From Thuidium tamariscinum (taxonomy: Eukaryota > Streptophyta > Bryopsida > Hypnales > Thuidiaceae): DNA of 64,000 bases. Below are positions 16,041-48,565 of the stretch, piece after piece (within the stretch, counting starts at the first letter, position 1; each line of letters begins with the position of its first letter). The position numbers and the translations under genes were made by a program. The DNA lies in NCBI GenBank assembly GCA_947034885.2, contig OZ019759.1, positions 13,828,501-13,892,500 of the forward strand, given 5' to 3'. The notes under the pieces were generated by a model. That model had not been told where the DNA came from and did not search any database. It saw nothing but the letters and a program-made list of their open reading frames with translations.

Positions 16041-16061
16041 GCCGAGTACCACATTAGAATT

Positions 16062-23287: not shown

Positions 23288-23382
23288 ATTGCTTAGAATA
23301 TATGTCTAATTGCTTAGAGTATATGTCTAACTACTTAGAGTACATGTCTAATTACTTAGAGTATATGTCTAATTACTTAGAG
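23288..23382. repeat. 21-bp tandem array, left half (interrupted)
   Basis: Four and a half units of a 21-bp repeat containing CTTAGAGTATATGTCTA. The last, partial unit ends with AGAG at the border of the giant element and continues at 48509. Confidence 0.92.
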
Positions 23383-23407
23383 AACATGATATTCATTAAA
23401 ATGAGAG
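23383..23407 (+). repeat. left terminal inverted repeat of the giant element
   Basis: Begins AACATGATATTCATTAAA and pairs with 48484-48508 with three mismatches over 25 bp. Confidence 0.88.
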
Positions 23408-23800
23408 TTTTCCAATGTAATGAGACATTGGGACAGCTTACAAATTACAATCCTAAAAAAATCTACTAATAATTACTACTAAAAAACCCATAGAACACCA
23501 TGTAAAAAAGACAATGAAGTCTCGAATATGAACAATTGTACACAAAACTTTCACAGAAGGTAGTAGCTTTTTACAATGTAATCAAGGAATGTACAAGCAC
23601 AATGTCCAAACGCTTTGGAAGTATACGTATTTTGCCTCCGATACACAAAATACCCTAAACCCTAAATTTTCCGTATCTCATACAATGTTTTTTAACTTTG
23701 TAGCGTATGAAGACAGACATCGAAGATCATGTGGGAAATGATTCTATGATTGCATACTTGAATAGAAAATGCTCGATACTATGTACAAGTGATGCTGACC

Positions 23801-24200
23801 GTCACATTCTTGATAGTCGAAGCATCTCATCTCCCCCGACTGCGTTGGGCTTGTTAGTAGAAGCTTCAGAAGACTAGCCATGGTTAGAAAAGAAGAAATT
23901 GGAGGAAAAGCTTCAATGCAATTCTTCACAGAGAAACAATAGACTCAAGAACATCTAAGTGCCACTCTACAGTTCCCTAAACGGCAATATCAAACATATA
24001 GGTTCAAATTGCCACTCATGGAACTGCTTAGAGTGGCATCTAGATGCTTTTGTTTCTACAATTTCTGTGCAAAGATCTACGTTGAAGCTCATCCTCCAAT
24101 TTTCTCCCTTCCTAACCATGACCCATCTTCTAAAACTTCTACTGACAAGGCCATCACAGTCGACGAAGATGAGATACTTTAACTACCTAGCTTGTAAATT
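23801..24200. repeat. ~400-bp imperfect foldback
   Basis: The left arm (23801-about 23985) is a diverged inverse copy of the right arm (about 24005-24200). Examples are TTCTAACCATGGCTAGTCTT on the minus strand against TTCCTAACCATGACCCATCTT on the plus strand, and TGCCACTCTACAGTTCC against TGCCACTCTAAGCAGTTCC. Both arms give short matching frames containing LLKLLLT. A hairpin transcript would be mostly double-stranded. No gene is assigned. Confidence 0.75.
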
Positions 24201-25122
24201 TTTTTACGGTTTGCATCCGAAAGCTTCAATACAACTTTGCTATATACTGTTTTTTTCTATGAGATGATCGTAGCTAACTATATCATCTACATTGTACTTA
24301 TAACTCCCGGCTATACAATAGTAATTGTCTCAAAAACTGTGGGCTAGTCAATAAACAAATGATTGCTCATATTCTATAACACAAAGCTACCAAAAAATAT
24401 TTACTCCTACTACGATGCACCCTTCAATTTTTCCATGGCCTTCATGATCTCAGGTCCCTGACTGTATCTTGCCGCAATCCTCCCTGCCTCGTGGATTTCA
24501 TCCATCCGTTGCGCCTTCAGTGACCGTTGTTCCTACAAATCCCACGATGGAGCCGAGCTCTGGCTACATGAGGGGCCATCGTGCTTCCGCTTTCCCTTCC
24601 GACGTTGGGACGACGTTCTCTGTTGGGGTAGCGCGGGCGGTTTTGGGTGGGAAACAACTCCTATGTGCTTCAGTTCCAAGCTTGAAGTAAGAGTATCCGG
24701 TGCCGCGACAGGGTAGTTTGCATCTCCGTAGAGCTTCCTCTGGGTCCCTTTCTCTGAGGCTGATGGATCCACTGAAGGTTCCCTGGAATACAGTGGCAAA
24801 GGTGATGCTGAGAAAGGCAGTCTGGTCTTCCGATCTAGAGGGCTATCCACGACCCCATAGTCGATGGGCTTTCTAGAGAAGTCCATAGAGGAATTCAGAG
24901 TAGGTGCCGATCCAAGAAAGTTCCCGGTGCTGAGGATGATGTACTGCCCGTAGTCTAGGATGGAGTCCTCCGACACTCACCAACGTAGATCCATACTTGG
25001 CTCCCGGTAAGTGGAAGTACTAATCATCTGCAACGCAAGAGCAAAGAATCAGAACCAAGTAACACGGAGCAGTAAGTTGATTCACAATAAGCAACGCAAA
25101 CAATATTTATTTCGACAAACAC

Positions 25123-25208
25123 TTTAGCTCGATTGGAGCTTAAGTGTTAAGTTACACAAACTAGTAAAGAACGTGGAGTCGCCAGATTTCAGCTCGACTC
25201 GAGCTAAA
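25123..25208. promoter_or_regulatory. two palindromes in the last intron of the HAD-like gene
   Basis: TTAGCTCGATTGGAGCTTAA near 25124-25143 and TCAGCTCGACTCGAGCTAA near 25189-25207. Both lie in the intron just upstream (+ side) of the acceptor at 25028-25030. Confidence 0.85.
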
Positions 25209-25645
25209 CCGCAGACCTCGACATGTTCCACTAACTAACAATCGGTGATCTTCGCACGACCTCCATGAACTTGTCATATTCTTTGCGACCTCTTTCGTCG
25301 CAAAGCATTCGTCGTCCAATTCTTCCTTTTTTAGCATCACGAAACGACTTCAGCCCCACGTCGCAATGGACGTATAGTTGCTGAAACCATGGAAGTAGAG
25401 TTCCGAGTAGGAAATTGTCTTTGTCGCTGTTTCCTCGGTGGCTCCAAGATTCCGCGAGCACTACGTTCTCGGACTTGTTCATAATGTGTTTCCATGGGCT
25501 GTCGTCTACTATTACGGTATTTTCAGAATTAAATCCCCCACGCGGGTGCCCGAAAAGCACATCTAAGTTCTTTAGAAACAAGTCTTTGTCAGTACCGGGA
25601 TCCTTAAAGGAGGTGAGCCTCCCAAATTTATCCCGGCACTTCAGG

Positions 25646-25978
25646 CACTATAACAAAACATGGTTTGAAAAAACCGTAGTCATTTTTGACTACGGTTCTT
25701 TTTACTACATTTTTGTGCATGCGCGCATAATGGATTTTTACGGTTTTTTGCAATTTCCTACTACAATTCTTGGAATTTCTAGGCTTGTAATATACCATTG
25801 GAAAGGTATTTTGAATAGCTTTCCAATGGTATATTACACGCCTAGAAATTCCAAGAATTGCAGTGGGAAGTTGCAAAAAACCGTAAAAATCCACTACGCG
25901 TGCATGCACAAAAACGTGGCAAAAAGAACCGTAGTCAAAAATGACTACGGTTTTTTCAGACCATGTTTTGTTATAGTG
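25646..25978. mobile_element. CACTA-type foldback MITE in the HAD-like gene
   Basis: Ends are CACTATAACAAAACATG and its reverse complement. The 333-bp interior is a near-continuous hairpin (ACCGTAGTCATTTTTGACTACGG occurs near both ends). The 3-bp duplication AGG lies at 25643-25645 and 25979-25981. It splits the conserved region between LLVLG and KCRDKFGRLTSF of the phosphatase-like protein. Confidence 0.95.
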
Positions 25979-26892
25979 AGGGTCTTGCAGGCATCCTACC
26001 CGAGAACTAAGAGAGGCCTCTGGTCGTTCCGAAAAAGATATTTGCAGATTTGGTCAGTGGTGGTTCTTTTCATGGAACTCCAAACTGAGATGAATGCTAT
26101 CTTTTCTAGCTCTCGGAGAAATGTAGAGTAGTTAGGTCTTACATAGACGGCCTTCGGTCCCACAACCGCAGCCATGGTGGCAGAGTGTGGTTCTGACTGG
26201 GCATTGAACTGTCTTATTGACCCCTTCGACTTCCAGTCCTCCGTGACACATAGGATGCCATTGAGATCCAGGATAATGTTTATCCACTTCACTACCATCC
26301 CGGACCTCAATGGTCGATGGACGTCTTCCATTGCCCCCCCACGAGCTACTAGAGGGTCGGATTCCTGTTAGAAAATAGAATACATCGCAGCCAGTTACGA
26401 ATCATCGAACTGGTACAGAGTGGAGAATACGCAAAACTGAATCATAATAGCCATACGACACCCATACATCCGGAGAGATAGGAAAAATATGTTTTTACCT
26501 CCATCTGTGTCGATTTGGAGGGCTCAGGCACATCCTTGATCGAGAGCGACCGACCAGCGGCAAAAGTGCTCTCTCCTCGTGCAGCGACTTCGCTCTCTAC
26601 TTTGTATTCTACACGAGGATTGGCTTCAAGTGTGACAATAAGAGAAGGCTCGGAGGAAGGTAGCACACAATCAACCAATTGCTCAACAACAACAATACCT
26701 ACGGTACAAAGTTGAGCGAAAAACTCTTTGTGAGAAATAATATATTACAAGCTCAAAAACTGAGTATTAATACAAAATATCAAAACAACGTTGGAAACTC
26801 CTGTGCGTCTAATCTTTACCGATGGTAAAGTACCGCCAAAACTCGATTCATATCTACAATCAAAACTCAGTACATGAGTCTGCCCTACACAA

Positions 26893-26913
26893 TTAGCTCG
26901 AGTCGAGCTAAAA
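26893..26913. promoter_or_regulatory. palindrome 25 bp past the ParB-like gene's stop
   Basis: TTAGCTCGAGTCGAGCTAA, a perfect palindrome apart from its central base. Its position past the stop matches 16019-16040 in the paralog. Confidence 0.85.
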
Positions 26914-28157
26914 CTACAGAAAAGAGAAATCGAGCTGTCATTGGGCACAACCTGCAGGTGGATCTTCCGTTGGTTGTGCACCACTTCCGGTTTCCGTATC
27001 GGAAGCATCCACGGCCAGGTTGTGCCCAACCTCGACATCTACTTTCTCCTTGGACGTCGCCTCCTACTCTCCAAGTTTGTGCTTGTCGTGAATTACATTC
27101 AGTTCCTTGTCGAAGGAGTTCTCCGGAAACTCGTCAATCGGCACCAATGTAGGCCTCTCGATGGGAGACTCTATTGACAGAGGCTCGTCTTCATGTGGCA
27201 GCACAGGCGTGGAAATCGGAGACTCCGCGGGGAGGCTGTCATCGAGTGGCGGCGGAAGAGGTGTGCAAATGGGGGACTCCGCCGGCAGAGGGGGAGCCAC
27301 ATTCACGATCATGGGGGGGGCTAGCGGCGTTGCTGTTGTTTGAGCCCGATGGATTACCCTCAATCTGAAGTTGCTGAGGGGTGGTAGCGGGCGAAATAGC
27401 GGCGAGAGGCCTGATCCCCGCCTTGTCCATTAACAAGGTGAGGATTTCACCGTTTCTCCTGCTCTCTTCCTTCCTCTCCTCTACTTGTTGCCGCATCTAT
27501 TGCCTCTGCTACTCTTGAAGCAACCAATTTCTTTCGTTAATTCTGGCCTGCTCCATGCAGTCCCTCTCACAATTCTCCCAAATCTGTTGCATTGCCAGGT
27601 CTGTCCTCCGTTGATTAGCTTGTGCGTTTTCCAACTAAAGCCTCTAGTATTCTGCCATTTGCTTCATGTAGTCTTTCATGGACTCCCGTTTTCGCTTCTT
27701 CTCGGACACATTGGCAAGTGTGGGAGTCCGGGGAGTCTGAGTAGCAAGCGGAAGCATGGAGGACGCGGTGGACTCTGGGACGTCTGAAGCTCGACGGCTT
27801 GTAGGGGTCGGCATATCGTCTAAACCACCCTCTCTGTCGAAGTCGTCATCTTCTTCATTAGATTCTTCCGTTCAAGAGTCATCCAGAGCCTCAAAGGCAA
27901 GAACAGACCTCTTCTTCTGTAAAGTGCTTGGCGAATCCTGGCTGGATCTCAACCTCCGCTTGGAAGAAGAAGGTTCAGACTCCGACCTATGCACAGCATC
28001 CGCCTGAGAAGTAGAGTACCCGCTAGGCAAGAAGTCGTTCTTGTCTAAGGTCATTGCGTTCTCGCAGATCTCCGCCCACCACGGACTTTCGATGTCTAAG
28101 CCAAAAGCATAGACATTAACACAACTCATCTGTATAGACATAGGGGAGACATCATAT

Positions 28158-28283
28158 TTAGCTCGATTCGAGTTGAATAGCGGAGATTATACAATTACAT
28201 CACACAAATCTAATTGATATCAAGTAATAATAAAAAATGACCATATTCAGAGAAAGACGCATTTTAGCTCGACTTGAGCTGAA
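28158..28283. promoter_or_regulatory. two palindromes at the ends of the last ParB-like gene intron
   Basis: TTAGCTCGATTCGAGTTGAA (28158-28177) lies near the acceptor and TTAGCTCGACTTGAGCTGAA (28264-28283) near the donor. The homologous intron of the 16-kb paralog has the same two positions filled with TTAGGTC-type palindromes. Confidence 0.85.
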
Positions 28284-29768
28284 GTGCAGCCTCGTAGCTC
28301 ACCATTGCAGCGCAAGTGAATTTGCCGCCCATAAATCCGGAGAAGACACTTGTCCCTAGAGTACAGAACTTCCCGACAAGCCACAAGTAAAACTCCATTC
28401 GCAATTCCAGATTATTTATGCGGTACTTCAGCTCGTTGTAGGCACGGGCTTTCATGTACCTTGTAGTGTCAGGGCATTGAAATTCCTCTGGAATTTTAAC
28501 TTGATGTGCATTATTTGGATTCTGCACAAACATAAGAAGCACCTTCTTTGGTGTTCTTGCAGCGGACACATCGCCAAGTCTGTCATTCTTCCCCGCATAG
28601 TAGTCAGCATACTCAATGTTCCAGGTACTGAGCTCCTCGTTCATCTCCACAAACCTTAGTACCTGTGCCTGTTCTTTTTCTTCGGCGCAGATAAAGAGCC
28701 AAGATGGGACCTCTTCAACTTTGGGATCTTTTTTGAACATGGTAATGATGACTTCAAAGAAATATGGGATGTCGACAGTCGACTTGTCCTTCTTCCCAAG
28801 ACTAGGCAACCATCGAAAGTCAACTACTCCTAGTGACATCTGCTTCGGTGTATCTGCCGTCCAGGCACACGGGGGCCACGTGGAATGAACGTTTCTGTTC
28901 TCATCATACATCCGATAGTGCCCCGTCACCATAGGCTTCACGAATTTCGCCTTCCGCTCCAAGAACAGCTTAAAGAACTCATACACGTCTTACGAGAGCT
29001 TTGCGCATGTCTTATTCTTTGACCTCACAAGCTTGGCCTCCGCGAAGTACCTCTCCCCTGGCCTGTCCAGGAGGATGTCCATTGTAGCCCTAGAGAACAT
29101 GCGCTCCTTCTTGAACGCCTTACAGTTCTCCACGATGATCTCGTTCTTCGCGTTCATCAACCCAAGCTCAGATTTAATTTGGTGCAATTCTTTTTTCACC
29201 AAATGCTTCCTCTTCCGACGCTCAACCCACTCTTTTGTCGTGTAACAGCTTTCAAGAACTGACGATATAGCTTTTATTGTCACCTTCAGATAACTGTGCT
29301 TGCGCTTATCACCTGACTAGTTCAAAATGTGCTTGGCAAGCTTTTCCAGCTGATCGTAGCTGAGATTGCCCAAGAACTTGAAAAATTCTCGAGTAAGCAT
29401 ATAGTTATTCGGGTTCTAATCAGTCCTAGCGTTAAACAACTTCTCTGTATTTGGGTTCAATAGCTCTCCGTGAGCAGCGGCAAAGATCACCTCACTCCAG
29501 AGCTTGTATACATCGTTGGGTGCTGTGATGAGTTTTAACTCATTTGTCAGCTTTCGCTTTTCTTCCTTGTCCTTCGTCTTGGACAATTTTAAATTCTTGT
29601 TGACATCGATCATGGAGAATCGTAAGTAAATAGCCTTCTCGAATTCCTGAAATGAATCCATTACAAAATTGTAAGACTTTGTGCATTGATTGCATCCTAA
29701 CAATAAATTCAAGAAGGTATTACTATAAATGTATAAAATCAATGACAAGCACATATGTTGTAGTGCCA

Positions 29769-29789
29769 TTCAGCTTGAATCGAGCTGAA
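29769..29789. promoter_or_regulatory. palindrome abutting a 5' splice site
   Basis: TCAGCTTGAATCGAGCTGA begins a few bases after the GTAAGC donor on the minus strand, inside the intron between NLKNKDKFN and EFEKAIYL. Confidence 0.8.
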
Positions 29790-31275
29790 TTGCTTACATT
29801 GAATTTGTCCTTGTTCTTCAGGTTCTCGACTGTTCTTCTGATGGCTGTCAGAGTTCCAACAGACGCTGCCTCTTTCGGATTCCTCGGCCTGTCCATGGCC
29901 TCCCAAATTGCACGCGCACCAAGAATATTTGTCGCCCACGAAGGTTGAGTCGCAATGAAATGGTTGGTTTGATTATAATATGCATCGAAGCTTTTATTCA
30001 TCGTCGAACCAAACAAGAAAGCAATTCCATTTATGGAAATCCTTTCTCACGTCCTCAACAATCCCATTGTTGTTCTCCATCATCCACTTGCTCGCTGCGA
30101 TGTTGTGCTAGCCATTTATAATGTAGAAGTTGTTGTTCTCAACCTGTTCCCACTTTGTAGGCTTCTCTTTGAAACCGACGGGCATGACGTACAATGTTTG
30201 TCTGCCACTCTTATTTGGAATGTTGAAGAGCCAGTTCACCATGTCCACAACGATTCGGTCTTCCTTTGAGCGAATGTTGAATGTCAGAGGTGCAGAGATC
30301 ATCTTTGAGATGTCGATCTCTTTCTTCTCTCCAATTGGCAGAATATATGCATCTTCACAAGTGGACCAGAATTTCTGGTACACATCACTAACCGTCTTGT
30401 AGTTAGGCTTCTTTTGTGTCACACGAGAGTGAGGAACATTTTCCATCTCCTCAACATAGCTGCCTGACGCGATCTCGGAGATCTCGGAGGACTTTGAGGC
30501 CTTCTTTGCAGTTGAAGGAGAGGCACCACTTTTCTTCGTCTGACTCTGTCTGGGCAATTTTGGTTGCCTCTGACTACTTCTTCTCTCCTTTGCGGTAGCA
30601 GATTCCACCACAGAATTCCGCTTCAAGATATCACTGCCATCGACGATTGGTGCGTTGACAAAAACGGAACGAGGATTCTGCATCTCCTGTTTCAATTTTA
30701 ATTTCACCTTCAGGGTGCTCAAATCACTGAACATGAAGCAAAGTTTTGACATAATCGTCTGCTGCTTAACGAAGCTCCATTTCCATCCTGCCACTTCTTA
30801 CTGTCCATTTTCTTTTCAAGCTCTTTCACTTCGTCGACAAAAATTGAGGTTTCTAAACTTTTTAGAAACGGTGTCATGGTGAATGGAATGAGATTTGAGT
30901 CCAGGCAAATCGTGAAGTGGTACTGATCTTTCATCGGAATGTCTTTATCAAGCATCATGCACTTGATCTTGATAGCTGGATGAGCATTAGCCTCAACGTC
31001 CTTTACTTTATCTTCGAAGGACAGCTCAATAAAGACGGGAGAATTCTTAAACTTATACGAAAAGGCGCTCTCGTTGGCATACGGGATCATCTTTAAGCTC
31101 CACGCCTCTACTTGCTCTGGGTCCTTGAGCTCCTAGAACTCTCCCTCTGAGAGCATCATGTCGCCATCTATGTTCTCATCAGGACTCTGAACTTCACATG
31201 TTTGGAAATACATTTGTAGGTTGGCAATCATTTCTTCCATCTTGAGTCTGCAATGAGATATATGTCAAGGGCTTG

Positions 31276-31682
31276 TTTAGCTCGATTTGAGCTAAAAGAA
31301 CAATCTAATCGAATGTATTTTTATTATCATACATAGTTGATTGCTGATGGATACAGAATGTCTAGAACGATATATAACAGAGAAATATTGTGGTTGATGT
31401 TGAGTTAACATTTGACTTTTATCTTGTCTTTAAGATATGCACAGATATGAGAAGGGCTTTTTATGAAGGGCAATTTTGTTCTTTCGATATCGGGGGCATG
31501 ATGAGCTTTTAGCTCGAGTCGAGCTGAATAGACAATCCGCCCGCTTTGTCTATTTTTGTTTGTGCGTATTTACTTCTAGTATATTTTAATATTCAAATTG
31601 TTTACTACTGTTATTTCATTTAATCTCTACGGTTTTCTCATTCTTGTAATGCGTCCAGCAGTTTAGCTCGACTCAAGCTGAA
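31276..31682. promoter_or_regulatory. three palindromes upstream of the left arm
   Basis: Copies at 31276-31296, 31508-31528 and 31662-31682 (cores CTCGATTTGAG, CTCGAGTCGAG, CTCGACTCAAG) lie upstream of ATG 31240, probably in a 5'-UTR intron that ends at CATTGCAG. Confidence 0.8.
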
Positions 31683-34063: not shown

Positions 34064-34400
34064 TTAAAAAATTCTCTATTAATTATCTGATACGTTTTTG
34101 GATTAATGACAAAAAGTTCTCTATTAGTTACCTAATAGGTTTTTGGATTAATGACAAAAAAAATTCTATTAATTACCTAATAGGATTTTGGGTTAATGAC
34201 AACTACCTTAGCTATTATTGAAACTTTAAATCGATTAAAGATTTAAAGTAATTTTAATAAATCACAATTACCTTTTGTATTATTGAAACTCTAAATGACT
34301 TATACATTACAGAGAATTAGATTACCCACAATTGCATTTTGTATTTGAAACTTCAAATCACTTATAGATATAGCCATTTCTATTGCATTAAATAAAAGTT
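34064..34400. repeat. short AT-rich tandem repeats
   Basis: Three ~50-bp units share ATTAATTACCTAATAGG and TTTTTGGATTAATGAC (34064-34205). Three ~80-bp degenerate units share TATTATTGAAACT and a TTAAAT-like stretch (about 34210-34400). Confidence 0.7.
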
Positions 34401-35599
34401 GAACCTAATTTTAAAACATTTATTGAATAATAAAATATTCGTGTACTCTTCAAATCAAAATGTCATACAGAAATATTCAAATGATTAATGTACTAAGTAT
34501 GCCTTGACTCTAAAAATTTCAAAATATTTAGATGAAAATTGAAAGATAAAAATGCTTAACGAATCGTAGAGCCCAAACCTTGAAAATTTTGAAAAAGCTA
34601 TAAATGTTGAATATTAAACTTCATTCTGTTTATTTGAGAACTACAACTTCTGAAAAATGAATTGAGACATATTTTCAGACTCTGAAAACTCTAATCCCAT
34701 AGTTCAATTGTATTACTAAAAACTATTTCTTTATGTCATACAATTCTAGGATTATTTTGCAGAATGTTCAAACATGACAAAAAGAATAAATAATTGTTAA
34801 GTTACATATCAAAACATTGTTATTTAAACACAATATATTACATTGTTATTTAAACATTAAATTTCAAATTGGAATATAGGATTCATGACTTACTTCATTT
34901 TATTCGATTTTTATCCTTTTCCAAACAAAAGTAAAAAAAATTCGTTGTAGTTAAAGCATCTCTTTACCACTATATATGGTTTCATTATACAAATTATTGG
35001 TGAGAATAAAAACATTATTGTTGAACTGAATATAGGGTATGAAGAATCTATAACATCCTTTAATTTATTCATCTTCTTCCTTCACATAAATGAGAGAGGA
35101 AATAGAAACGATATGCACTACATCTAAATTTATTTGCAATCCGCTTAATCTTTGTTTTAGACTACTAAAGAGTAATTACATCGTCAAAAAATTCTTAATT
35201 GTCAATCTAAATACATTACATATCTAAGAGTACTAAATGTATTTGTACCTTGATTCTTACTAAACCCATTTTCTATTCTAATTTCTAGGAATTTAAATTG
35301 AACAATGAATCAATGACATTGAAAATGACAACCACTTAGGATATATATGTTTTTTTCCATATAAAGGCATGGCTAATACCAAAACATTGAGGTTGCAACA
35401 CTTTCAAATATTAAATACTCATTGAAGTACCAAAAATTGGCCACTATTTAATTTATGTATTAGCATCTTCATAATTTTTAAATGAACAAGCAATTATTCG
35501 ATTGTATATTAACCTAACCATTCATAAATTGACATTTGTACATGGCAATTAAAGTAGCATATAAATTGCAAAGCATTGAAAGATTTTAGATTCATGATT
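34401..35599. other. AT-rich DNA, nothing recognised
   Basis: About 1.2 kb of very AT-rich sequence with no long frame. Homology to the satellites on its right is not obvious by eye. Confidence 0.3.
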
Positions 35600-36560
35600 T
35601 AATGCAAATTTTCAATGTTCACTAAATCTTGTGACATCTTCGGTGTACTTAAGAGCTTTCAATCATACTTTTAAACACTTTGGCTATTTGTATTATAAAT
35701 TAAATGACACCCACAAGTTATATTATTTTCTTGAAATCCACATTAATTTTTTCATACACTTCTACACATGTTTGAATATTCCTAGACGTCATAGAATTTT
35801 CATCAAATTAGTTGCTGTACTTAAGAGCCCCAGATCAAACTTCTAGACATTTGGGATTCTTCAACCCATAAATAAATCACACATACAAGTTCTATTATTT
35901 TCTTAAAACCCGCATCAATTTTTGTGGTACATTTTTTTACATGTTAGAGTACTAATTATATCCATGAAATTTTACGAAAATTAACCGTTGTATTTAAGAG
36001 CATTTAATTTTACTCTTGAGCAATTTGGTTGTTTTTATCAAAAATTAGATGACCCCCACGAGGTCTACGTTCTTTTTTAAATCCACGTCAATTTTTTCAT
36101 ACACTTTTACACGTGTGTGAATATTAATCAATCTCATGAAATTATCATCAAATTCCATGGTATATTTAAGAGCATTAAATCAAAGTTTTAGATGTTAAAG
36201 GTTTTCAATCCATAAATAAATCACACATGTAAGTTCTATTTTTTTCCACATGTACATTAATTTTTTCATACACTGTTTGACGTGTTTGAGTTGTAATCAA
36301 GTGTATGGAATTTCTAAGAAATTATCATTGTACTTAAAAGCATTTTATTTTACTTCTAAACACTTTGGTTATTTTTATCAAAAATTAAATGACATCCACA
36401 AGTTGTATTGTGTTTTTCACACCCACGTTAATTTTTTCATGCACTATTTTACATATTACAGTACTAATCAAGTTTATGGAATTTCAAGTGAAATAACTGT
36501 TGTACTTAAATAAAAGCATGTCATTGTACTTTAAAACTGTTTGCCTAGTTGTATCAAAAA
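35600..36560. repeat. central satellite array 1, ~171-bp period
   Basis: Five degenerate units marked by AATTTTTTCATACACT. Marker positions are about 35751, 35921, 36096, 36265 and 36436 (steps 169-175). Each unit also has TTGTACTTAAGAGCAT and ATGACACCCACAAGTT-like words. Confidence 0.85.
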
Positions 36561-37480
36561 TTAAATGGCACACCTAAACCCTAAGTGTTTTAACAATATC
36601 AAATCATCACCCCTTTTCAATGATGAAAGATTTTGGATATTCAATGGAGCCCTTGGAATTTGAATTCATGTAATCGTTGTACTTAAATGCCTAAATGCAA
36701 ATATGTCATGCATTTCGTACCAAATTTCAGTACAAAATCAACACACAACTTGGGAATGTTTTAACAAAACAAAATCATTGTCCCTTTTCAATGATGCACA
36801 TTTTAGATATTTAATGGGGCCTTCAAATTTTAATTCAATTAATTGTTGTATTTAATAGGCTACATGCAAATATCTCATGCATCTTGTACCAAATCAACCC
36901 ACAATTCGGGAATGTTTTAACAAGATCAAATCATTACTCCTTTTCAGTGATGGAAGATTTTGGATATTAAATGGGGCCCTTCAAATTGTACTTTAATTAA
37001 TGCATGTACTTAATATGCCTAAAAGCAAATATATCATGTATTTTGTACCATATTTAAGAACAAAATCAATCCACAATTGGGGAATGTTTTAACAAAATCA
37101 AGTCATTGTCCCTTTCAATGATGGAAGATTTTGAGTTCTTAATGGGGCCCTTGGAATTCTCATTCAAGCAATTGTTGTATTTAATAGGCCTAAATGCAAA
37201 AACTTCAAACATGTTGTTCCGAATCGAAGAATAAATCAATGCACAACTTCGAAATATTTTAACAATGCAAATCTTTGCCCATCTTCTTAATGATGGAAGT
37301 ATTTGGGTATTTAATGGGGTACTTAAAATTTTTATTTCAATTAATTCTTGTATTAAGGAGGCATTAATTCAAATATCTCATGCATTTTGAATGGAATAAT
37401 AAGAGAAGAACAATCAACAACTTCAAAATGTTCTAACAAACCCAAATCATAGTCAATTGATAGTATGCACAAGTGTTTCA
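36561..37480. repeat. central satellite array 2, ~156-174-bp period
   Basis: Six units marked by GTTTTAACAA. Positions are about 36588, 36759, 36915, 37087, 37257 and 37431. Shared words include TTTCAATGATGGAAGATTTT, GGGCCCTT and ATGCAAATAT. Sequence differs from array 1 although the period is similar. Confidence 0.85.
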
Positions 37481-37639
37481 ATGTTTAATAAGGCCTTCAA
37501 AAATTTAATGTATATATTTGTTGTATTTAATAAATCTTAATTTAATTATATCATACGTGTTAAATATAAATCATATAACTTGAAATTTCATGAGTTCTGT
37601 TATGAATTTAACTTTGTATTGTCAAAAATCAGTCATAGA

Positions 37640-40600
37640 ATATTCAAAATGCTATTCCTACATATTATGGGATTCTATGCTAAATTCCCATGATTTTATA
37701 TGTGGTTGGGAAAGAAGTTCATTCACCCAAGTTGTTCAATTTTGACGGATTTGCAATTCTTCAGTTTCCTCCTCAATTCTGATTTTTTAAATGTCAATTT
37801 GGCAATGGATTTTCTTAAAATATAGTTGCTGTATATTGTGGTTTAAAGTTCAATTTCCTATGTATTCGATACGTGAGTGCGCAAGATTTTAGGTAATTCG
37901 AGGTCTCCAACTTTTTGGAACTCCAAAATCATGAGTTTGGCTTATGAAATTTAATTTCTATTGCAAAAATTGACTATGGAATGTTCAAAATTTGTTGTTG
38001 TATTCTGTGAGGGTCAATCCAAAATTCCTACATATGAAGTACGTAGATGTGTATGATTTTGACGCACCTAAGTTCTCCAGTTCTTTAAGACTTCAAATTC
38101 ATTAATTATTTTCATGAGTTTTGATCTTCTTTATGGTTAATTTTAAAGTGCAGTTTCTAAAAATACAGTTCCTGTATTTTTAAAAGATTCAATCCAAAGT
38201 GTCTACGTATCATGTACATGATTATGGAATGTTTTGACTCATATAGCTTGTTCAATTTTCAAAGATTTATAATTCATGAAATTACTTCAAATTTTACTAT
38301 GTGTTGGGTTTAGGAAGCTATGAAAAGTTTAAAAAATTTCTAACATTAATTTGGCCGTGGACTATTTAGAAATACAATTGCTATATTTTATCATGTTTAA
38401 TCCTAAATGTCCTTGCACAAAATATGTAATGGTGCAACCTTTTAACCCACCGATGTTGTCCAAATTTTTTGGGACTTCAAATTGATGCCTTGTTTTTCAT
38501 GAATTCTACTTTGCAATGTTTGCAATTGGCTATAGAATAATCAAAATGCAATAATTGATGTACTTCGTGGAATTCAACGCAAAATTCTCATGATTTTAGT
38601 ACGTGATTGAACAAATTTTTGGTTCAGTCAAGTTGTTTAATGTTTTGAGGCTTCAAATGGTGGACTTGTCCTCATGAATTTTGTTTGGAGGGACTAATTG
38701 GTCCTTGGGATGTATAAAAGTACAATTGTTGTACTATGTAGAGTTGAATCCAAGTTTCCTATGTATTGGATACGTGAATGTGTATGATTTTGATCCACCC
38801 AAGTTGTCTTATTTCTTGAGACTTGAAATTGATGAGTTTTGTTTGTGGATCTTGATTTTTAAATGATTAATTTGGCCTTTGAGTTTTAAAAAATACAATT
38901 ATTGTATTTTTTGTGGTTCAATTCAAAATTGGTACGTACCGAAGACATATTTGTGCAAGATTTTGGCTCATTCAAGATCCATAATTTTTTGGAACTTGGA
39001 ATCCATGACTTTTGCTTATAAACGTTGATTTGTATATGATGAAATTGGCCATAGAATATGAAAAAGTACAATTATTATATTTTATGGGGTTCAATCCAAA
39101 ATTCTTATCCATGAAGTACATGAATGTGTAAGATTTTGGCTCATTCAAGTTGTCCAATGTTTGAGAACTTTGAATTCATGAGTTTTGCTTAGGAAATTGA
39201 ATTTGTATTTGAAAAAAACAACCACGGAATGTTGAAAATATGTTGCTGTATTTTATGGGGTTCAATCCAGAATTCCAACGTATTGGGGACATGAATGTGT
39301 GTGATTTTGAGGCACCCAAGTTGTTTAATTTTTTAAGACTTCAAATTCATTATTTGTTTTCATAAAGTTTGCTTTTTGTAAAGGTTAATTTGGCTATAAT
39401 TTTGTTGTGTTTCATGGGATTCAATCCAAAATGTCTACATAACACAAACGTGATTATGCAAATTTGGGGCTTATGGATATTGTCCATTTTTTTGGGACTT
39501 AATTTCATGACTTTGTTTTTGAATTTACATTTGTATCGTTTGAAATTGGCCATGGAATGTTAAGAAATATAGTTGAATTGTTTAATACGATTCAATTCAA
39601 AATTCTCATGCATGGGGTACGTGAATGAGTAAGACTTTGGTTCATTAAATTTGTCCAATTTTTGGGGACTTCAAATTCATGAGTTTAGGGTAGTGAATTT
39701 TAATTTCTATTTGGAAAAAATGGCCAAGGAATGTAAAAAGAAGTTGCTGTATTTAGGGATTCAATCCAAAACTCCCATGTATCAAGTACGTCAAAATGTA
39801 TGATTTTGACGCACCCAAGTTGTTTAATTTTTTAAGACATTAAATTCATTACTTCTCTTGTGAATTCTGCTTTTTGTTAAGGTTAATTTGGCCATGGAGT
39901 TTTTGAAAATACAGTTGCTATATTTTATGGGCTTTTATCCAAAATTTCTACGTAACACCTACGTGATGATGTAACTTTTTTGCTCACTGATGTCGTCCAA
40001 TTTTTTGTGACTTCAAATTCATGACTTCTGCTTTTGAATTTAGGTTTAGGGTTGCGTGAAATTGGCCATGGAATGCTAGAAAATACCATTGCTGTATTTT
40101 ATGGGTTTCCATCCAAAATTCTCATGCACGAGGTACATTCATGTGTAAGATTTTGGCTCACTGAAGTTGTCCAATTTTTTGGTGACTTTGAATTCATGAG
40201 TTTTGCTCGTGAATTTTAATTTGTATTGTGGAAAAATGGCCATGGAATGTTAAAACACCATTGTTGTATTTTGTAGGATTCAATTCAGAATTCCTAGTAC
40301 GCATTGGATACATGAATGTGCATGATTATGATCCATCCAAGTTGTCTAATTTGTAGGGATTTGAAATTGATGAATTTTGTTCGTGAATTTTAAATTTTTT
40401 ATAGTTCATTTGGCCATGGAGTTCTTAAAAATGCAGTTGTTGTCTTTCCTGGGATTCAATCCAAAAATTTTACGTACCATAGACGTGGTTTTGCAAGATT
40501 TTGGCTCATTCCACTTCCTTAATTTTTCATGGTTAGAAATTAATGACTTTTGGTTTTGAATTTAGATATGTATTGCGTGAAATTGGGCATGGAGTCATGG

Positions 40601-40840
40601 ACTATTAAAATACATTGTTGTATTTAATGGGATTCAATTCAAAATTCCTATGCATTGGCTACATGAATGCGTATGATTATGATGCACCCAAGTTGCCTAA
40701 TTTCTTGGTTGCTGAATTTGATGAATTTAGTTAGTAAATTTTCAATTTTTTATGGTTCATTTGGCCATGGAGTAATTAAAAATACAATTGATGTATTTTG
40801 TGGGATTCAATCCAAAATTCCAACATATAAAGGACACACC
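37640..40840. repeat. central satellite array 3, ~173-bp period
   Basis: About 17-19 units marked by GGGATTCAATCCAAAATTC. Typical steps between markers are 169-178 bp (for example 39093, 39264, 39423, 39594, 39763, 39936, 40110, 40282, 40458, 40636, 40809). Each unit also has CCAAGTTGTCCAATTTTT, GACTTCAAATTCATGA and TTGGCCATGGA. Copies are 70-85% alike by eye, so the array is old. Confidence 0.9.
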
Positions 40841-41239
40841 CTAAACACTTTAAATTCTTGTAACGTAGAACTCAAATCCTGAACCCTAAATCCTTTAAAC
40901 CCTTAAACTGTAGAACTAAAACCCTAAACCCGTAAACCCTAAATTGCATAGCATTGGAAGATTTTAGATTCATGATTTCATGCAAATTTTCAATTTCGCT
41001 TTTTCTTTCTTCTTTGTTGTATTCTATACTTCCACTAACAAATGTATCCACAAGTTGTATGATTTGATTTTTTTCTTATTCAATGCCCCATTTGTTTAAA
41101 CTTTTTAGCAGTCTACATTAAATTTAAAGCTAACAATGTCTTTTGTAAAACTTTTCCAAGAATCTAAAATGACAAAGAAAATCGCAACTTGTATGTTTTG
41201 TTCAACAGGTTCTTTATACAACGTAAACCGTAAACACTG
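40841..41239. other. junction between satellite arrays
   Basis: Runs of CCCTAAA-like words (CCTAAACCCGTAAACCCTAAA near 40932) resemble degenerate telomere-type repeats. No gene is seen. Confidence 0.4.
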
Positions 41240-42960
41240 AACCCTAACCCTAAATCCTAAACCCATTTTGAAAATGGAATTTCATTATTCTAGGCCACTT
41301 CAACTTGCACTCATTTCCCCCCGCTATTTTGTACGTGAAATTGAAGACATTTGAGGCTTTAAACTCCTTCTCTAAGAAATGGCAGGAGTCTCTGGTGTTT
41401 GCTTTAAATTACAAATTTGCCAATTCTTGAGCATGAAAATAAATTTGGATGTACCACATTGATATTCAATAGCGTTGCAGCTTACACCTATTTTTTTTTG
41501 GTCTTTTGAATGTGGAATTAAAGACATTTGAGGTGTTGGTCCTCTTTTCCAAGAAATGGCAAGAGTTTTTATTTTTTTGGTTTAGGGTACAAATTTGCCA
41601 ATTGGTAAGCATGAAATTCATTTTGAAAATGAAACTCCATTACTGTAGGGCATTCCAACTTACACTCATTTTTTACCGCTATTTTGTACATGAAATTGAA
41701 GACATTTGAGGCTTTGGATTCCTTTTCAGGAAAATGACAGATTTTTTTTTGTATGCTCTGTATTACAAATTTGCCACAGTTTGAGCATGAAAATAACACT
41801 GAACAATGAAACTCGCATACACGAGTACCAAATTATGTGGTCTTCATTATAATCACTTTTATTGGATTTTAATCTACTCTGAAATTATTTAATGTGCTTT
41901 TTGGTAGAACATTGTAGGTACCCTTTTAACAACAAATCCCAAGATGTAACTATGTATATGAAATAAATATTCTTTGAGGACAATAGAAGCATTAAAATCC
42001 TAATTATGCGAAATTGTTAAAAACATGTATCATACTTAGGCTAAGGTTCCCAACTATGAGTGCTTTCAAATAATAATTGAATTTTAATTAGAGATAACGT
42101 CTTATATAGATTTTGAAGAATTATATAAAAATGTTTCAATTCGTCATATTTTTGAAAGTTTCTTTGTATCCTATATGTAGTGCAACCTTTATTGCATGTA
42201 ATTTCCTTTTAAGTTGACCTTTAATTACCTTTTTGGTCTTTTTAATTTGATATAATTTTAACAGAAGCCATCCATTAAGCCGTTTTAATGTCGATGTCCA
42301 CTGCATGTAATGGAAGAGTTGCATACTTGGGCATAAAGCAAACATGTACTATGACATTCTAACTACATTTTTTTCTGTGGCTATTTTGGATGTAGAATAG
42401 AATACATTTGATGCTTTCCATTTTTTTTCTTACAAAATGTAGAGTTCCTTAATATTTAGTTTTAACTTTTAATTAGGGAGAGGGCAATTTCAGAAGATGA
42501 AAATAGTATTGAACATAAAACAATACTGTTCAGTACAGTTCCAACATTCATTGCTTTTTTGGGCCATCTTGTTTATAGAATAAGTTGAAAACATTTGATG
42601 CTTTGTAATTGTTCCCTAAAAGATAGAAGGGCTGTTTATTTTGTAGTTTAAATGAGAAAGTATGCGATAGGAAACCATGTAAATAACAGTGAATATGAAA
42701 CGTGTTTGTTCTATGAAATTTGACTACTCTTTACGTGGTAATCAATTCATTTAAAGTTTAGGATATCTTTTGCAAGAAATGGCCAGGCTTTCCATTTTTG
42801 GGTTAAAATTAGGGAATGGGCTATTATGGAGCCTAGAATTAATTTACAATATAGAAAATTCTAGTTAGATGACATCCCGACATGGATTCAATTTTTTTCA
42901 ATTATTGTACATGGAATTAAATGCATTTGAGGCTTTAGACTATTTTGACAACCTCTCTAA
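41240..42960. repeat. central satellite array 4, ~175-bp period
   Basis: Units marked by GAAGACATTTGAGGCTTT at about 41344, 41520, 41698, 42411, 42588, 42745 and 42917. The 713-bp gap fits four steps of ~178 bp with eroded copies. Other shared words are AGAAATGGCAGG, TTACAAATTTGCCAAT and GAGCATGAAAATAA. Confidence 0.8.
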
Positions 42961-43980
42961 GATTTTGTATTTTTTGATATTCATTAGAGAGAGAACAATT
43001 GTAAACCATGGAAATAAACAAATCTTCTGAATCCCTTTCACTTGAAACACTAAATCCTAAACCTTTAACACCTAGTTTTGAATAAAATAGAAAACACTGA
43101 TAATTTTTGACATTATCACTAAGTAGCTCTTGAATTCTTAGTTGGAAGGAACTGGTAAATTGAAATCTTATAACCAAGATTGGGTTTAGGTTTCGTTGAA
43201 GAATGACGCCGCCACTATCATACATCAACAATAGTATATAGAAGTCAACGTTATTAATAAATGGAATCTACGGTTGTAAAGAGCCTAAAAATTGGCGGGC
43301 CCTTTTACTGAAATAAAAATTGCCGGAACTAGGACGGGTCTCCTTTTTTGGTGTACAGCAAAGACGGCTTTTGGGATTCGTGGGCCGTTTCAAATTGAAA
43401 GGGTCGACTGCAGAAGCGCGAAATAAGTTGGCGTTTTTTTTTGCCCGCGCAAGGAGCCAGGTGATCGACGCCATTGCATTTGCAAACTTCTTATTCAACC
43501 TATCTACTTGGCCGCATCGACGTTGGTGTACATTGAGATCTTGTGTTTCGTTCTTCACTTCTGTCGTTACGACTTGCGAAGTATATACACGGTTGTTTGC
43601 GGAGTCTTAGCTTGCTTTTACTATAAGTTGTAAGTTCTTGAGACGGCTGTTGGTCGCAAGTCGGTTGCGATTAGCATTTGCACCTCCTCGATAACCTCGT
43701 TGTTTGGCTGCCATGTAAATGTTTTCGGTTGTCATTTTAGTGTTGAGGACAGTGTTTTTGTGTTGTTATGATTTCTACACATCAAGTTTGGTAGCGTTTT
43801 GTTGTTGGTCGATCATCTGTCTATCTCGGAGCCTCATACGACGAGGGCAGCAGATCCCTCAGTGCCATTTGCTCTATGAAGAGTCCGGGATTTTTGGTTT
43901 TCTATTTATAGAAAGTTTTTTAGTTGTAGGAATGTCGATAATTTCCGTGAATTATGGAGTACTGTGCTTATTTACGAATA
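42961..43980 (+). promoter_or_regulatory. GC-richer leader of the right arm
   Basis: Composition rises at about 43290, with motifs such as GCGGGCCC and GGGTCGACTGCAG. No protein domain is found in the short frames. By position this is promoter plus untranslated leader for the plus-strand gene at 44754. Confidence 0.4.
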
Positions 43981-44683
43981 TTAGCTCGACTTGAGCTGAA
44001 TAGACATCGCACTGTAGTAGATATTTGACCGCATGACCATGTCCTATTGCTTACATTACTTGAACAGCAGCAAATTAGCTCGATTCGAGCTAAATTACCA
44101 TATTTATCTAGTGAGCTTATTCTGCAGATACATAATTGAGAGTCATAAAAAATCTTTTTATTTTTTGTAATCTTTTTTCATGATGACGTTGGAGATATCT
44201 TTGTACAGTCCTTCATCTTGACTCTACATAAATTACTTTGAGAAGATATGCATGCATAATATTTTAATCCATCATTTCAACTCGATTCGAGATGAAGTGT
44301 AGGATTGGTTCATAGCTTTAAAGTCTAATAAGACCTCAACATCTCAGCTCGATTCAAGTTGAACTGTTCGATTTATTCAAAACCCTTTCCTGAATACAGG
44401 ATATATCAAGAAATGACTGCTGATACTGCAGTTCAGCTCAATTCGAGCTGAAGTGATTTATCTCACTCTTACAGAGTTTTTCTTTGTACATGTCTTTTTA
44501 GGCCAAATTCATTTGCTTTGATTTCTTGAACGTCCATTTCTATTAACAACTTTCCGATGCGTAGTATGACTTTCTGAAGTCTTTCTGGAGTGATATGGGA
44601 TACTCCTCTTAACTTGTATTTGCGTCCATCTAGAAGTATTCTGTTATGTTAAAATGGTAGCATTCAGCTCGAGTCGAGCTGAA
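43981..44683. promoter_or_regulatory. six palindromes in the right-arm leader intron
   Basis: Copies near 43981-44000, 44074-44094, 44276-44295, 44343-44362, 44432-44452 and 44663-44683. The last is perfect apart from the centre (TCAGCTCGAGTCGAGCTGA). All lie before the acceptor CTTGCCCAG (44741-44747), just upstream of ATG 44754, so they fall in an untranslated intron or promoter. Confidence 0.85.
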
Positions 44684-44753
44684 GTGCTGACTGATGATGA
44701 GTACAGCTATGTTGCTTCTTATTTTTTGCGTTGGCATATCTTGCCCAGGAACA

Positions 44754-47525
44754 ATGTCTAATCCGAACATTTCAATGGATATGGTCTTCTCTTCTGAAGA
44801 TGAATTCTAGGATATTGAATCTATGAATGTTGGTGTTCTTGAGTGCGAAGGTCTTCCTCGACGACTATGGGTTACGAAGTGCGTGAGTCTTTACAATGAC
44901 AACGACATCCTTGTTGGAGATGGAACTTGCCACAGCGTCAATTCAAACTTAGTGCTTGGTGCCAATGGTCCTCTTGGAGACACACATGTTGTTGTGCACA
45001 TTTCCAAGACTCATTCTGAAGAAGACATTCCTCGTGAGCAAGTGTACTTGCTTGTAGCTTGGCCCATCAAACTTGTTCACTGCCGTGGGGCTAGTTTGTT
45101 CGATCATGATGCTCGGGACAACTTCAACCGCATATAGGCTGCTCTTCTGAACCCACCGTCTTCTACATCTGCATGGCCCTATTCAAGTGTAATAAGAAAT
45201 CCGCCTCGCGAGACTGGTCTCAAAGCAAAGGAATTGCTGACACAAGAGTCTATCAACTTGGTCTCCAGCAGACTGTGTTGTGGCAAGAATTGCATGCAAC
45301 CATTTCCAAGAGAGAAGATTCGGGCCTTCTGTGAAAGAATGTATTAGCGCTCTACATTCAAGTTTAGAGCTCACCTCAAAACCGAGGTTCACAGGACGGT
45401 TCATCATGGTGCAGACGGGAGGAAGATGGTGACGGTTGAAGGCATTAGTGTCTGCATGCGAGCGTGGATGCTTATTTCTGGAGTTCCGGAAGCAACTTTC
45501 TACCGGTACCAGACGTATGCAAAGGATCAACGTGAAGCGAGAGATCATGGTAATATAGGATTTGTAAAGCGAAGGAAGCACACTGAACAAGCCTTTGCCA
45601 CGTTAAAGTGCATTCTAGAGAAGGAGGCTGATCACATGCCTCACAAGACCAGGACTTTGAAGTCAGGAGACAAGGTTGTCTCGATGATTCTTCCGGCCAC
45701 ATTTCAATGGAAAGACTAGATTCCAAAAATTAATGAGGCAAATGCTACTTTTGGGCTGAAGGGCGTCTCCGACTCAAGCTTGAGCAAAATCAGATCCACC
45801 AAGTTCTCTGAATTCGATGTGAAGAAGCCTGGAGATAATTTTGCTCGGTGCGGAACTTGTGATGAATTGCAAGAGCTTAGGAAGAGTGCTCTGGCTGTCT
45901 CCAACAGTGCTTTGAAATGGTCAAGAAGGCTTGACAAACATCTTGCAATTGCCCGCGCACATAGGGAGTTATACTACGCTAACTAATATATGTCTCATAC
46001 TTCTCCCCATGAGTGCCTCACAATTATGCATGACAAGATGGACCATGCGAAGACCGCATCTCCAGTTTTCTCTCACAAGAGCAAGGAGACAGATGGCCTA
46101 GTCAAATTGCCCGTTTCTGTTACTAGCATGATTGCTCATGGTCATGGCGATGTTCGTTACGGGCATTACGGATTGGATATCTTTCCTCACGATTCGAATA
46201 ACACCATTGGTTCCATGGCAAAATTGTTGCGAGATTTGGAGAAGGTACCAAAGACATCCTCGCGATTGTTGTTTGAGGGTGTAGGCTCGTCCACGTTATT
46301 TTAGAGAGTTTTAAAGGGTGTAGAGATTTGCGAAGCCTCTCTACCACCTACACCGCAACCTTTAGTCCCAGTGACGCCATTACCACCCATTCTCAATGTG
46401 CAAATGGACAATGCCACTGGAGTCAACAAGAATCGATATGTTTTTTGCTTTTGGTCTTTGCTTGTGGCAAACAAGATCTTTTGTGAAGTGTTTGTGAACT
46501 TCATGATTGTGGGTCACACCCACGACGACATTGACGCATTGTTTAGGAGATGGAACATGCTATTGAAGAAGGAGAACTTTCCAACGGTTCCGGAGCTACT
46601 GAAGTCGTTCATGGATGTTCAGTCCATTCCTACTCTCCCTCACCTTATTGAGGAGGTTCCAGACTTCAAAGGATTTATTGGAGGGACTTTTTTGGATGGT
46701 AATGAGACCCTTGTTGGACACACAAAGCCGCAACAAGTAAAATTTTACTTGGATTCAAATGGAGTTCTAGTCATGAAGTACAAATTGTTGTGTACGGATA
46801 TGGAATGGTTAGGGGAAGGTGGTAGCGGTATAAAATTGTGGAAGGAGGATTCTGAGGGGCGTAGTTTGTGGCCCCGTGGAGTGCCTTTGCCCGTTCCTCC
46901 AAAACCAATGAGGGGTGTGGAGGAAATTGAGAAAGGGATAGCTGGATTCGTGAAGTATTGGGAAAACTTATGCAATGCAGATGTTACTGGTGAGTGTCGA
47001 CGGCGTTATGAACATTTGGTTTACTATTGGCATGATGTGAAGGATGCTTTGCAAGAACCAATTACTACCTCAGATGAGCTGAAGGACGGGTTTTGGCCCT
47101 CTACTCGAATTCAAGTGAATCCTGTTGATTAGTTGGGAGAAGATGGTGAGGACCGTGAGGAGTTCGGAGAAGACAATGCGTATGTTGGACCTTTGCGAGG
47201 TCGTCCACAACCATCCTTTAGGATTGGTCGTGATCTCTACGAAGGTTATTTCGTCGTAGTTCGTCCTGCAGATGGTAATTCTCAACCGGTTTGGATTGCA
47301 CGAGCGTTGTCTGATCTGAATTGTAATCCTGAAAAACCGAACTACATCCTCATCCAATACTTTTGCCCAACTTCTAAAAGCCAAAATGTGCAAGACTTCT
47401 ACACTGGATGGGACAGTGAAAGAGGTTTACGTTGGAAGGTTGATGTTACTGATCCACCAATTTGGGAAGCAACAAATGCTTTAATGATGGCGTGGAAGTC
47501 TCAGATCAAGAAAGATACTCAATAA
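44754..47525 (+). pseudogene. RNase H-like transposase-type gene (giant element, right arm)
   Basis: One reading frame of about 924 codons runs from ATG 44754 to TAA 47525 with no frameshift but seven in-frame stops (six TAG, one TAA). Parts in order: an acidic start; a segment like the domain of plant CACTA-associated proteins that ends in V-x-WP-x-x-LV (QVYLLVAWPIKLVHC); CCGKNCMQPF; a Cys pair (ARCGTCDELQELRK) with a His-rich helix; then VQMDNATGVNKNRYVF and FMIVGHTHDDIDALFRRW. The last two are hallmarks of a domain I recall as DUF7869, common in transposon-encoded proteins. A basic C-terminus (VRPADG...GWDSERGLRWKVD) follows. Acidic residues in QMDN and HDDID are candidate catalytic positions. 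This is the best candidate for the element's transposase. The missing frameshifts suggest a fairly recent insertion. Confidence 0.75.
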
Positions 47526-48074
47526 TGCTTGTTAAAGATCCCGACCGCACAAATTGAAATCATCAAGCAAAGCCTTGCTTCATATGTTTGATGTGTTTCA
47601 ATGAAGCCAACTCATGTGGTGTACTCTTTAATGTAGTGTAGTCTTTAACTTCAATTAGAAGTCTATTTAATATTTTTATGTGTTATTTGTAAGAGTTTGC
47701 ATTACAAATGATTTAAGTATTGTTTGTATTACATTCTATTTCAAATGAGAGCAAATATATGTTTTAGTTTTTAAACTTTGAATAGAAGTCTATTTAGTAT
47801 TTCTATGTATTGTTTGTAATACATTGTATTACAAATGATTATTCTACACTTGAATTAAATAGACAGTGTTTGATTTATGTGATTTTGTAGTTTACTTTAA
47901 GATACAATATTTGGATTGTACTTTTGTTTTAATAAAATGACTGTGCCTCTATATATTTTTAGTGTATTTACTAATATATTTGCGTTTGCTATTTTCATTT
48001 TGACTGTAATGGTTGTGTGCCTTTACTCTTAGTCAGGAAAACATTTGAAAATAAATTTTTTTTTGTGTGAATTC
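47526..48074. other. 3' flank of the right-arm gene
   Basis: AT-rich. Two short near-repeats contain GAAGTCTATTTA near 47660 and 47785. No gene is seen. Confidence 0.35.
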
Positions 48075-48205
48075 TAGAGTACAATCTCAATCTAGCTCAA
48101 TATTAGAATAGCGCCTATGGCTTTATAAGATGGAGGTCAACAGGAATCGAACCCGGGCCTCCAATCACACAACTATCAGTCTCTTGCACTACCTCTCGCA
48201 GTATA
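48075..48205 (-). mobile_element. tRNA-derived SINE-like sequence
   Basis: On the minus strand, a B box GGTTCGATTCC (48143-48153) follows an A-box-like GGTAGTGCAAGA (48182-48193) at tRNA-like spacing. No clean cloverleaf with a paired acceptor stem is visible. A SINE head or tRNA relic is therefore more likely than a working tRNA gene. Confidence 0.5.
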
Positions 48206-48483
48206 CCCTAACTTAATGGGGTGACAAACTAATGAAAATATTCATATATCAATCAATGTTGAACAACATAGACTCGATAAAAATTGAAGTCAGAGTCTAT
48301 AGGTGTAAAAAGTGATACCAAATAGAGACTACAATCATATTCTCTTTCTACTTCAAACTATCATTTTAAAGGAAATTATAAATTATAACTTATAAAATGA
48401 GATTAATAAACTTTAATTTAAGACAATTATATGTGATTTTCTGCTTGTGGAAATTGATGGTTTTAATTTGGGAGGTTCTTGAT

Positions 48484-48508
48484 CTCCCAATTTAATGAAT
48501 ATGATGTT
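48484..48508 (-). repeat. right terminal inverted repeat of the giant element
   Basis: Reads TTTAATGAATATGATGTT at its outer part, the complement of the left end, and is followed by the AGAG duplication. Confidence 0.88.
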
Positions 48509-48565
48509 AGAGTATATGTCTAACTACTTAGAGTATACATCTAACTACTTAGAGTATATCTCTAA
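48509..48565. repeat. 21-bp tandem array, right half
   Basis: About two and a half units of the same 21-bp repeat as 23288-23382, starting exactly at the duplicated AGAG. Confidence 0.92.

Follow-up and report, generated by a model that had tools for sequence, protein, structure and literature searches.

In a window of 64,000 nucleotides from the moss Thuidium tamariscinum (contig OZ019759.1, positions 13,828,501 to 13,892,500), which is the whole stretch of DNA analyzed here, we found that positions 23383-48508 are a single giant transposon insertion with terminal inverted repeats. The single insertion is supported by the features listed below. The element is quite likely an old and decayed giant cut-and-paste transposon of the Sola-1-like type, which entered a 21-bp minisatellite flanked by a RING gene and a SET gene. 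Thanks to this minisatellite, a 25-kb insertion can be delimited to the base pair. The features that define its borders are as follows.

23383-48508: whole element, 25,126 bp, one insertion
23383-23407, plus strand: left terminal inverted repeat, 25 bp, AACATGATATTCATTAAAATGAGAG
48484-48508, minus strand: right terminal inverted repeat, 22/25 identical to the left one
23379-23382: AGAG, left copy of the target-site duplication, 4 bp
48509-48512: AGAG, right copy of the target-site duplication, 4 bp
23261-23382: left part of the 21-bp tandem array (Tandem Repeats Finder)
48507-48569: right part of the array by Tandem Repeats Finder, with its start at 48509 by register
740-790, minus strand: third element end, with 82% identity to 23383-23433 across 51 nt

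The original prediction, made from the letters of the window, had described inverted ends of about 25 bp and AGAG duplications, and both are real. The match between the ends exceeds the best match to the left 25-mer in 60 Markov random sequences of 64 kb, which was 19, and AGAG is present at both junctions. When up to three mismatches were allowed, the end consensus had three matches in the window versus 0.00 expected, namely the two ends (whose outermost letters are AACAT) and 766-790. The duplication length of 4 bp was set by the register of the array together with the end homology. The left array terminates in ...TTACTTAGAG at 23382 and the right side reads AGAG TATATG... from 48509. The array resumes in register at 48509, as had been claimed, only if one duplication copy is taken out as well: joining 23382 straight to 48509 leaves an AGAG repeat, whereas removing the element together with one AGAG copy restores the 21-bp unit, which continues from 48513.

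The claim that the RING gene on the left and the SET gene on the right repeat the order of another copy of this pair, located further left in the window, also holds, both by matched segments and by gap sizes. RING-like coding at 21119-21550 and 22482-22835 matches 3735-4166 (E ~1e-12) and 4794-5138 (E ~6e-18), respectively, and SET-like coding at 49748-50014 matches 8254-8520 (E 9e-13). The matched RING and SET parts lie 3.1 kb apart in the left copy; in the right copy their distance is 26.9 kb, which is reduced to 1.8 kb without the element. Among Pfam families, Pre-SET was detected at ~49.76-50.0 kb just above its cut-off (E 1.2e-6). At 22.7 kb the best RING family reached E 0.005, and the SET match of the left copy had E 0.031, both below their cut-offs. 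Long inverted repeats at 22237-22454 and 50593-50756 (105 nt with 90% and 75 nt with 88% identity), in or near the RING and SET copies, are possibly fold-back miniature inverted-repeat transposable elements (MITEs).

The third copy of the element end was not mentioned in the earlier note. Its likeness to the element stops exactly at 791, where a 57-bp tandem array starts, and this is independent support for where the outermost base of the element lies. Further sequence of this array occurs at 376-431, and the ~360 bp that interrupt it (431-790) read as a second event of the same family in another tandem array. Both known insertions of the family (2/2) would then sit in tandem arrays, of 21-bp and 57-bp units. 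The units of the 57-bp array bear a different palindrome, TTAGATCATATYGATCTAA.

That the region is one insertion, as originally proposed, is borne out by the ends, the duplication, the register, the order of the flanking genes and the third copy of the end. It is very unlikely that more than one element, or a false join in the assembly, mimics such an insertion. The element does contain nested insertions, namely a MITE and a block of satellite framed by 55-bp repeats (both listed below), which could be read in that way; however, the matching ends, the in-register duplication, the order of RING and SET, and a palindrome shared by the two arms (15 sites) argue for a single unit.

The interior consists of two outward-facing gene arms, on the minus strand on the left and on the plus strand on the right, around a satellite core at ~35.6-42.8 kb, in agreement with the original description.

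44754-47525, plus strand: R, DUF7869 protein, 923 codons in a single reading frame
26950-31240, minus strand: L1, large multi-exon gene, splice sites read by eye
25233-26331, minus strand: L2, NLI-interacting-factor-like (NIF) phosphatase, PF03031, E 5.2e-13 in two stretches
25646-25978, minus strand: nested fold-back MITE, 333 bp, with ends CACTATAAC..., flanked by CCT
24411-24967, minus strand: L3, coding-like stretch with one in-frame TAG
35641-42817: diverged satellite core, 171-178-bp units
35562-35616 and 40940-40994: 55-bp direct repeats, 94.5% identical, which flank the denser part of the core

Pfam scanning covered 24.4-31.2 kb on the minus strand and 42.9-47.6 kb on the plus strand for the gene arms, and in addition 31.8-34.2 kb in six frames and 42.5-44.0 kb in three minus-strand frames. 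No Pfam domain was found in the last two stretches.

R is the probable transposase of the element, judging from its domain and motifs. It contains a DUF7869 domain (E 9e-38, 130 bits versus a cut-off of 26, best stretch 46377-46799) and three acidic motifs, MHDKMDHAKT from residue 425, QMDNATG from residue 550 and VGHTHDDID from residue 586, whose spacing, read by eye, appears compatible with a DDD triad. Seven in-frame stops interrupt R and no frameshift was seen. Self-comparison at E 1e-4 revealed no second DUF7869-like stretch in the window.

On the opposite strand, L1 may encode a protein with a ParB-like DNA-binding part and a methyltransferase-like part, as suggested by motifs that we read by eye: a ParB-like GQHN motif near 30110, in the segment NFYIINGQHNIAASKWM with one stop read as Q, and near 28305 the segment SVFSGFMGGKFTCAAM, which resembles the FxGxG motif of adenine or cytosine-N4 methyltransferases. 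The neighboring L2 is split by the nested MITE, which reads as a CACTA type with CCT as its 3-bp duplication, and L3 is either the last exon of L2 or a separate gene.

Sola elements have a DDD transposase, 4-bp duplications and inverted repeats of 11-1124 bp, are mostly 2-9 kb long with some over 15 kb, and are present in the moss Physcomitrella patens (PMC10741241). In Ectocarpus, giant Sola-1, KDZ and EnSpm elements were described, among them the 21.5-kb Sola1-1_Ec32, in which a gene for a ParB-like and DNA methyltransferase protein lies opposite to the transposase; the authors suggested that these proteins may attach to the transposon that encodes them and alter it epigenetically, and noted nested insertions and broken transposase genes in giant elements generally (PMC12477816).

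In the Thuidium element, the duplication is likewise 4 bp (AGAG), the 25-bp inverted repeats fall within the published range, DUF7869 with its three acidic motifs is a by-eye candidate for the DDD transposase, and L1 fits the opposite-strand gene in orientation and size, with its motifs read by eye and no profile match. Short inverted repeats, which vary among Sola elements, are likewise a trait of the superfamily (PMC10741241; Sola2, PMC3627910). On the other hand, the element is 25 kb long versus the usual 2-9 kb. It shares with Sola1-1_Ec32 the giant size and a probable transposase with a large opposite-strand gene, which in Sola1-1_Ec32 was read as ParB-like plus DNA methyltransferase, but differs in its plant host, the added NIF phosphatase, the satellite core and a set of palindromes (see below); the available part of PMC12477816 mentions no palindromic target sites for Sola1-1_Ec32. 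We place the element beside the giant Sola-1 elements mainly because our ParB/methyltransferase-like reading of L1, which preceded this comparison, agrees with the gene of the Ectocarpus element. The likeness is drawn from layout, duplication, ends and published descriptions.

The original prediction did not recognize a described superfamily in this architecture. An undescribed superfamily is not supported. We consider it rather unlikely that the element belongs to some superfamily other than Sola, described or not, in which case its DUF7869 transposase would not be of the Sola type and its ParB/methyltransferase-like gene would be a shared accessory. It is true that DUF7869 could not be tied to Sola here: its Pfam model is a domain of unknown function, a search for it by name in the papers available found nothing, and the structure model of R was unreliable. 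However, the 4-bp duplication, the size, the possible DDD transposase and the large opposite-strand ParB/methyltransferase-like gene match the giant Sola-1 as described (PMC12477816; PMC10741241).

Several known groups were tried and rejected. EnSpm/CACTA elements have ends that begin with CACTA/G and a 3-bp duplication; here the ends begin with AACAT and the duplication is 4 bp. Mutator-like elements have a 9-11-bp duplication and a MULE transposase, which do not fit a 4-bp duplication and the lack of a MULE domain in 24.4-31.2 kb (minus strand) and 42.9-47.6 kb (plus strand). The KDZ transposase domain has a Pfam model, which gave no match in the scanned frames (that is, outside 23.4-24.4, 34.2-42.5 and 47.6-48.5 kb). 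Helitrons have neither inverted terminal repeats nor a duplication and encode Rep/helicase; inverted ends and a duplication are present here, and no helicase match was found in the frames scanned. Polinton was rejected as its expected domains were missing in these frames. In size (>15 kb) and in the presence of accessory genes, the element does resemble KDZ, giant EnSpm/CACTA, Polinton and Teratorn elements (PMC6431247; PMC12477816), but none of its scanned frames contained a domain of KDZ, CACTA-type, polymerase or virus-like kind. MuTAnT elements, which are Mutator-like elements that target TA microsatellites (PMC4486113), similarly insert into simple tandem repeats; however, they are Mutator-like, and here there are only two events, in 21- and 57-bp minisatellites.

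A further feature of the element is a 19-bp palindrome, TYAGCTCGANTCGAGCTRA, of which fifteen copies are spread over the two arms.

25124, 25189, 26893, 28158, 28264, 29770, 31277, 31509 and 31663 (span 25124-31681), minus strand: nine palindromes, located in introns and upstream of L1
43981, 44075, 44277, 44344, 44433 and 44664 (span 43981-44682), plus strand: six palindromes upstream of R
13700-18800, minus strand: H, a gene related to L1 but diverged; variant palindromes at 16019, 17246 and 17335

With up to two mismatches, the pattern TYAGCTYGANTCRAGCTRA occurs 16 times in the window versus 0.04 expected, 15 times in the element and once in H; apart from the diverged version in this related gene, it is absent from the 38.9 kb that surround the element. 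A looser scan (related pattern, up to four mismatches) gave scattered extra matches inside and outside the element and in the 57-bp array, at about the random rate (five Markov sequences gave 4 to 8 per strand), and these were left uncounted. None of the 15 palindromes overlaps the coding pieces, which as drawn take up 7,933 of the 25,126 bases. Some are close to by-eye splice sites: palindromes follow the donors at 29797 (from intron position 10), 28302 (from position 21) and 25216, and others precede the exon at 28129, by 28 nt, and the acceptor that lies immediately upstream of the start codon of L1.

H is 44-45% identical to L1 over ~420 aa (422 aa at 17361-18626), and the two genes share a homologous intron, which follows ...FTCAAM in L1 and ...LTWATM in H (a stop read as W). 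In both genes a palindrome lies shortly behind the donor of this intron and another lies deeper in it, separated from the exon by 28 nt in L1 and ~68 nt in H. The palindrome of H in this intron is TTAGGTCRANTYGAYCTAA or close to it, and the acceptor is CAA, not CAG. Because the self-comparison revealed no second DUF7869-like stretch, palindromes within the window accompany the L1 family in 2/2 cases, with few sites in H (three). H is probably the remains of a second giant element, for which no ends were found. A 175-bp direct repeat (18616-18790 and 18967-19141, 94% identical) lies at the upstream edge of H.

We next consider whether the palindromes act in DNA or in RNA. The second option, in which they would be intron-border hairpins that aid splicing or remains of introner-type insertions, is rather improbable. 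It could account for the palindromes close to splice sites and has a precedent in Amoebophrya, where introners with inverted repeats near splice sites were described (PMC7789003); in addition, pairing over all 18 sites (element and H together) was found in 88.9% of cells versus 84.7% for shuffled partners (2/500 shuffles as high; 10/500 for the covariation score), which leaves some room for it. The position five from the centre paired more often than in any of 2000 shuffles over the 18 sites, and this pairing change is the difference between the element and H. Within the 15 element sites, none of the positions covaried significantly when partners were shuffled (lowest P 0.12). The best-defined intron (173 nt, folded together with one exon base as 28129-28302) is no more stable than its shuffles (z 0.25, 115/200 at least as stable), and six of the palindromes are located upstream of the R start codon. 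Since the stem is kept as sequence and not merely as pairing, with no covariation within the element and an intron that folds no better than shuffled sequence, we favor, with moderate confidence, the palindromes as candidate protein-bound DNA sites over RNA hairpins.

It is possible that the protein that binds these sites is that of L1. In bacterial ParB-parS systems and in ParB-methyltransferase fusions, ParB occurs with multiple palindromic sites, and the element resembles them in having a putative ParB-like protein and multiple palindromic sites, although sequence homology searches were negative. GANTC, the target of the bacterial adenine methyltransferase CcrM, is at the centre of 10 of the 15 element palindromes, and it is mildly above expectation in the arms (41 versus 31.7 and 29 versus 19.8).

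The history of the element might be as follows. R would have recognized the 25-bp ends, cleaved both strands and inserted the element at a target with a 4-bp stagger; cut-and-paste by R is how we infer this step, and its outcome is seen in the duplication and the ends. The left arm would have supplied accessory genes on the opposite strand, L1 and the NIF-type phosphatase. L1 might have recognized the fifteen palindromes upstream of and within introns of the genes of both arms, and such binding might have served to mark or bridge them and so to organize the element's own genes, for example for escape from host silencing. As a tentative proposal, more doubtful than the Sola-1-like assignment, this would be a self-marking system, in which a ParB-/methyltransferase-like protein binds some fifteen parS-like palindromes and methylates (at GANTC) or bridges them, either to keep the transposon genes active or to hold the two distant ends together. 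The variant palindromes of H suggest that site and protein may change in concert from one related element to the next.

A number of observations weigh against parts of this interpretation. The insertion at 431-790 has no recognizable partner end at its left edge, and its duplication can be read in more than one way (ACAC from the sequence, 2 or 3 bp from the register). GANTC is lost in 5/15 palindromes of the element and in 2/3 of those in H. The catalytic motif of such methyltransferases, DPPY/DPPW, is not clearly present in L1, and the exon-intron borders of the element genes were read by eye. L1 and H had no profile or PDB match at the curated cut-off or a meaningful E-value; the lowest E was 0.023, for a 66-aa piece with a herpesvirus model, below the cut-off. 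A PDB sequence search with R gave no match, and AlphaFold models of R and of the N-terminal part of L1 were unreliable (mean predicted local distance difference test scores of 32 and 36, respectively). No relative was found for pieces of R, L1 and H, or for an L1/H alignment, in viral contigs, where a motif scan yielded 17 loci and no relative by by-eye judgement of the frames around the motif. The same was true of phages scanned with the L1 N-terminal part and R (two matches to the former, E 0.4 and 5), of plasmids searched with an L1 piece and of prokaryote genomes searched with an L1/H alignment.

What is new here is a palindrome set specific to the element, of which a variant form occurs in the matching intron of its relative H. 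The available parts of the literature on intronic palindromes, introners and ParB in transposons gave no description of such sites. The 19-bp palindrome in both arms of one element is a concrete candidate target, and if the L1 protein binds it, the role of such accessory genes becomes directly testable.

The present copy appears to be dead as read, because stops interrupt R, L1, L2 and L3, L1 has frame changes and a MITE lies in L2. In the L1 pieces there are eleven in-frame stops (9 TAG, 1 TAA and 1 TGA) and, by eye, at least three frame changes. The coding pieces of the element together (24411-31198 and 44754-47522) have 17 TAG, 2 TAA and 1 TGA (n=20, 2641 codons), a bias toward TAG that is rare under chance one-step decay (P <=4e-4 in three simple models). 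The corresponding numbers are 6, 2 and 2 in H (n=10), 1, 0 and 2 in the left RING pieces (582 codons) and none in the left SET pieces (500 codons). We considered whether TAG might stand for glutamine in the element; decay is the simpler explanation, since the neighboring RING and SET genes show no such use and L1 contains frame changes.

Several other features were observed. Telomere-like AAACCCTAA motifs and the neighboring transposons would, as a guess, point to a plant or streptophyte alga as the host. Near the right end of the element, a tRNA-like stretch on the minus strand (48130-48200), with A-box- and B-box-like parts read by eye, is perhaps a remnant of a short interspersed nuclear element; ARAGORN detected no tRNA in the window, including this stretch, and an Rfam scan of the window gave no match. 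A transposon-like gene at 10261-14733 on the minus strand has the motifs DYAENYSF, SDGCSAQFK and WNFFESAHGKGEWDGAG, and no Pfam family matched it at a meaningful E-value. By reading, a Mutator-like transposon gene is located at 56200-60400, also on the minus strand, with a weak Pfam match to a SWIM finger (E 0.17).

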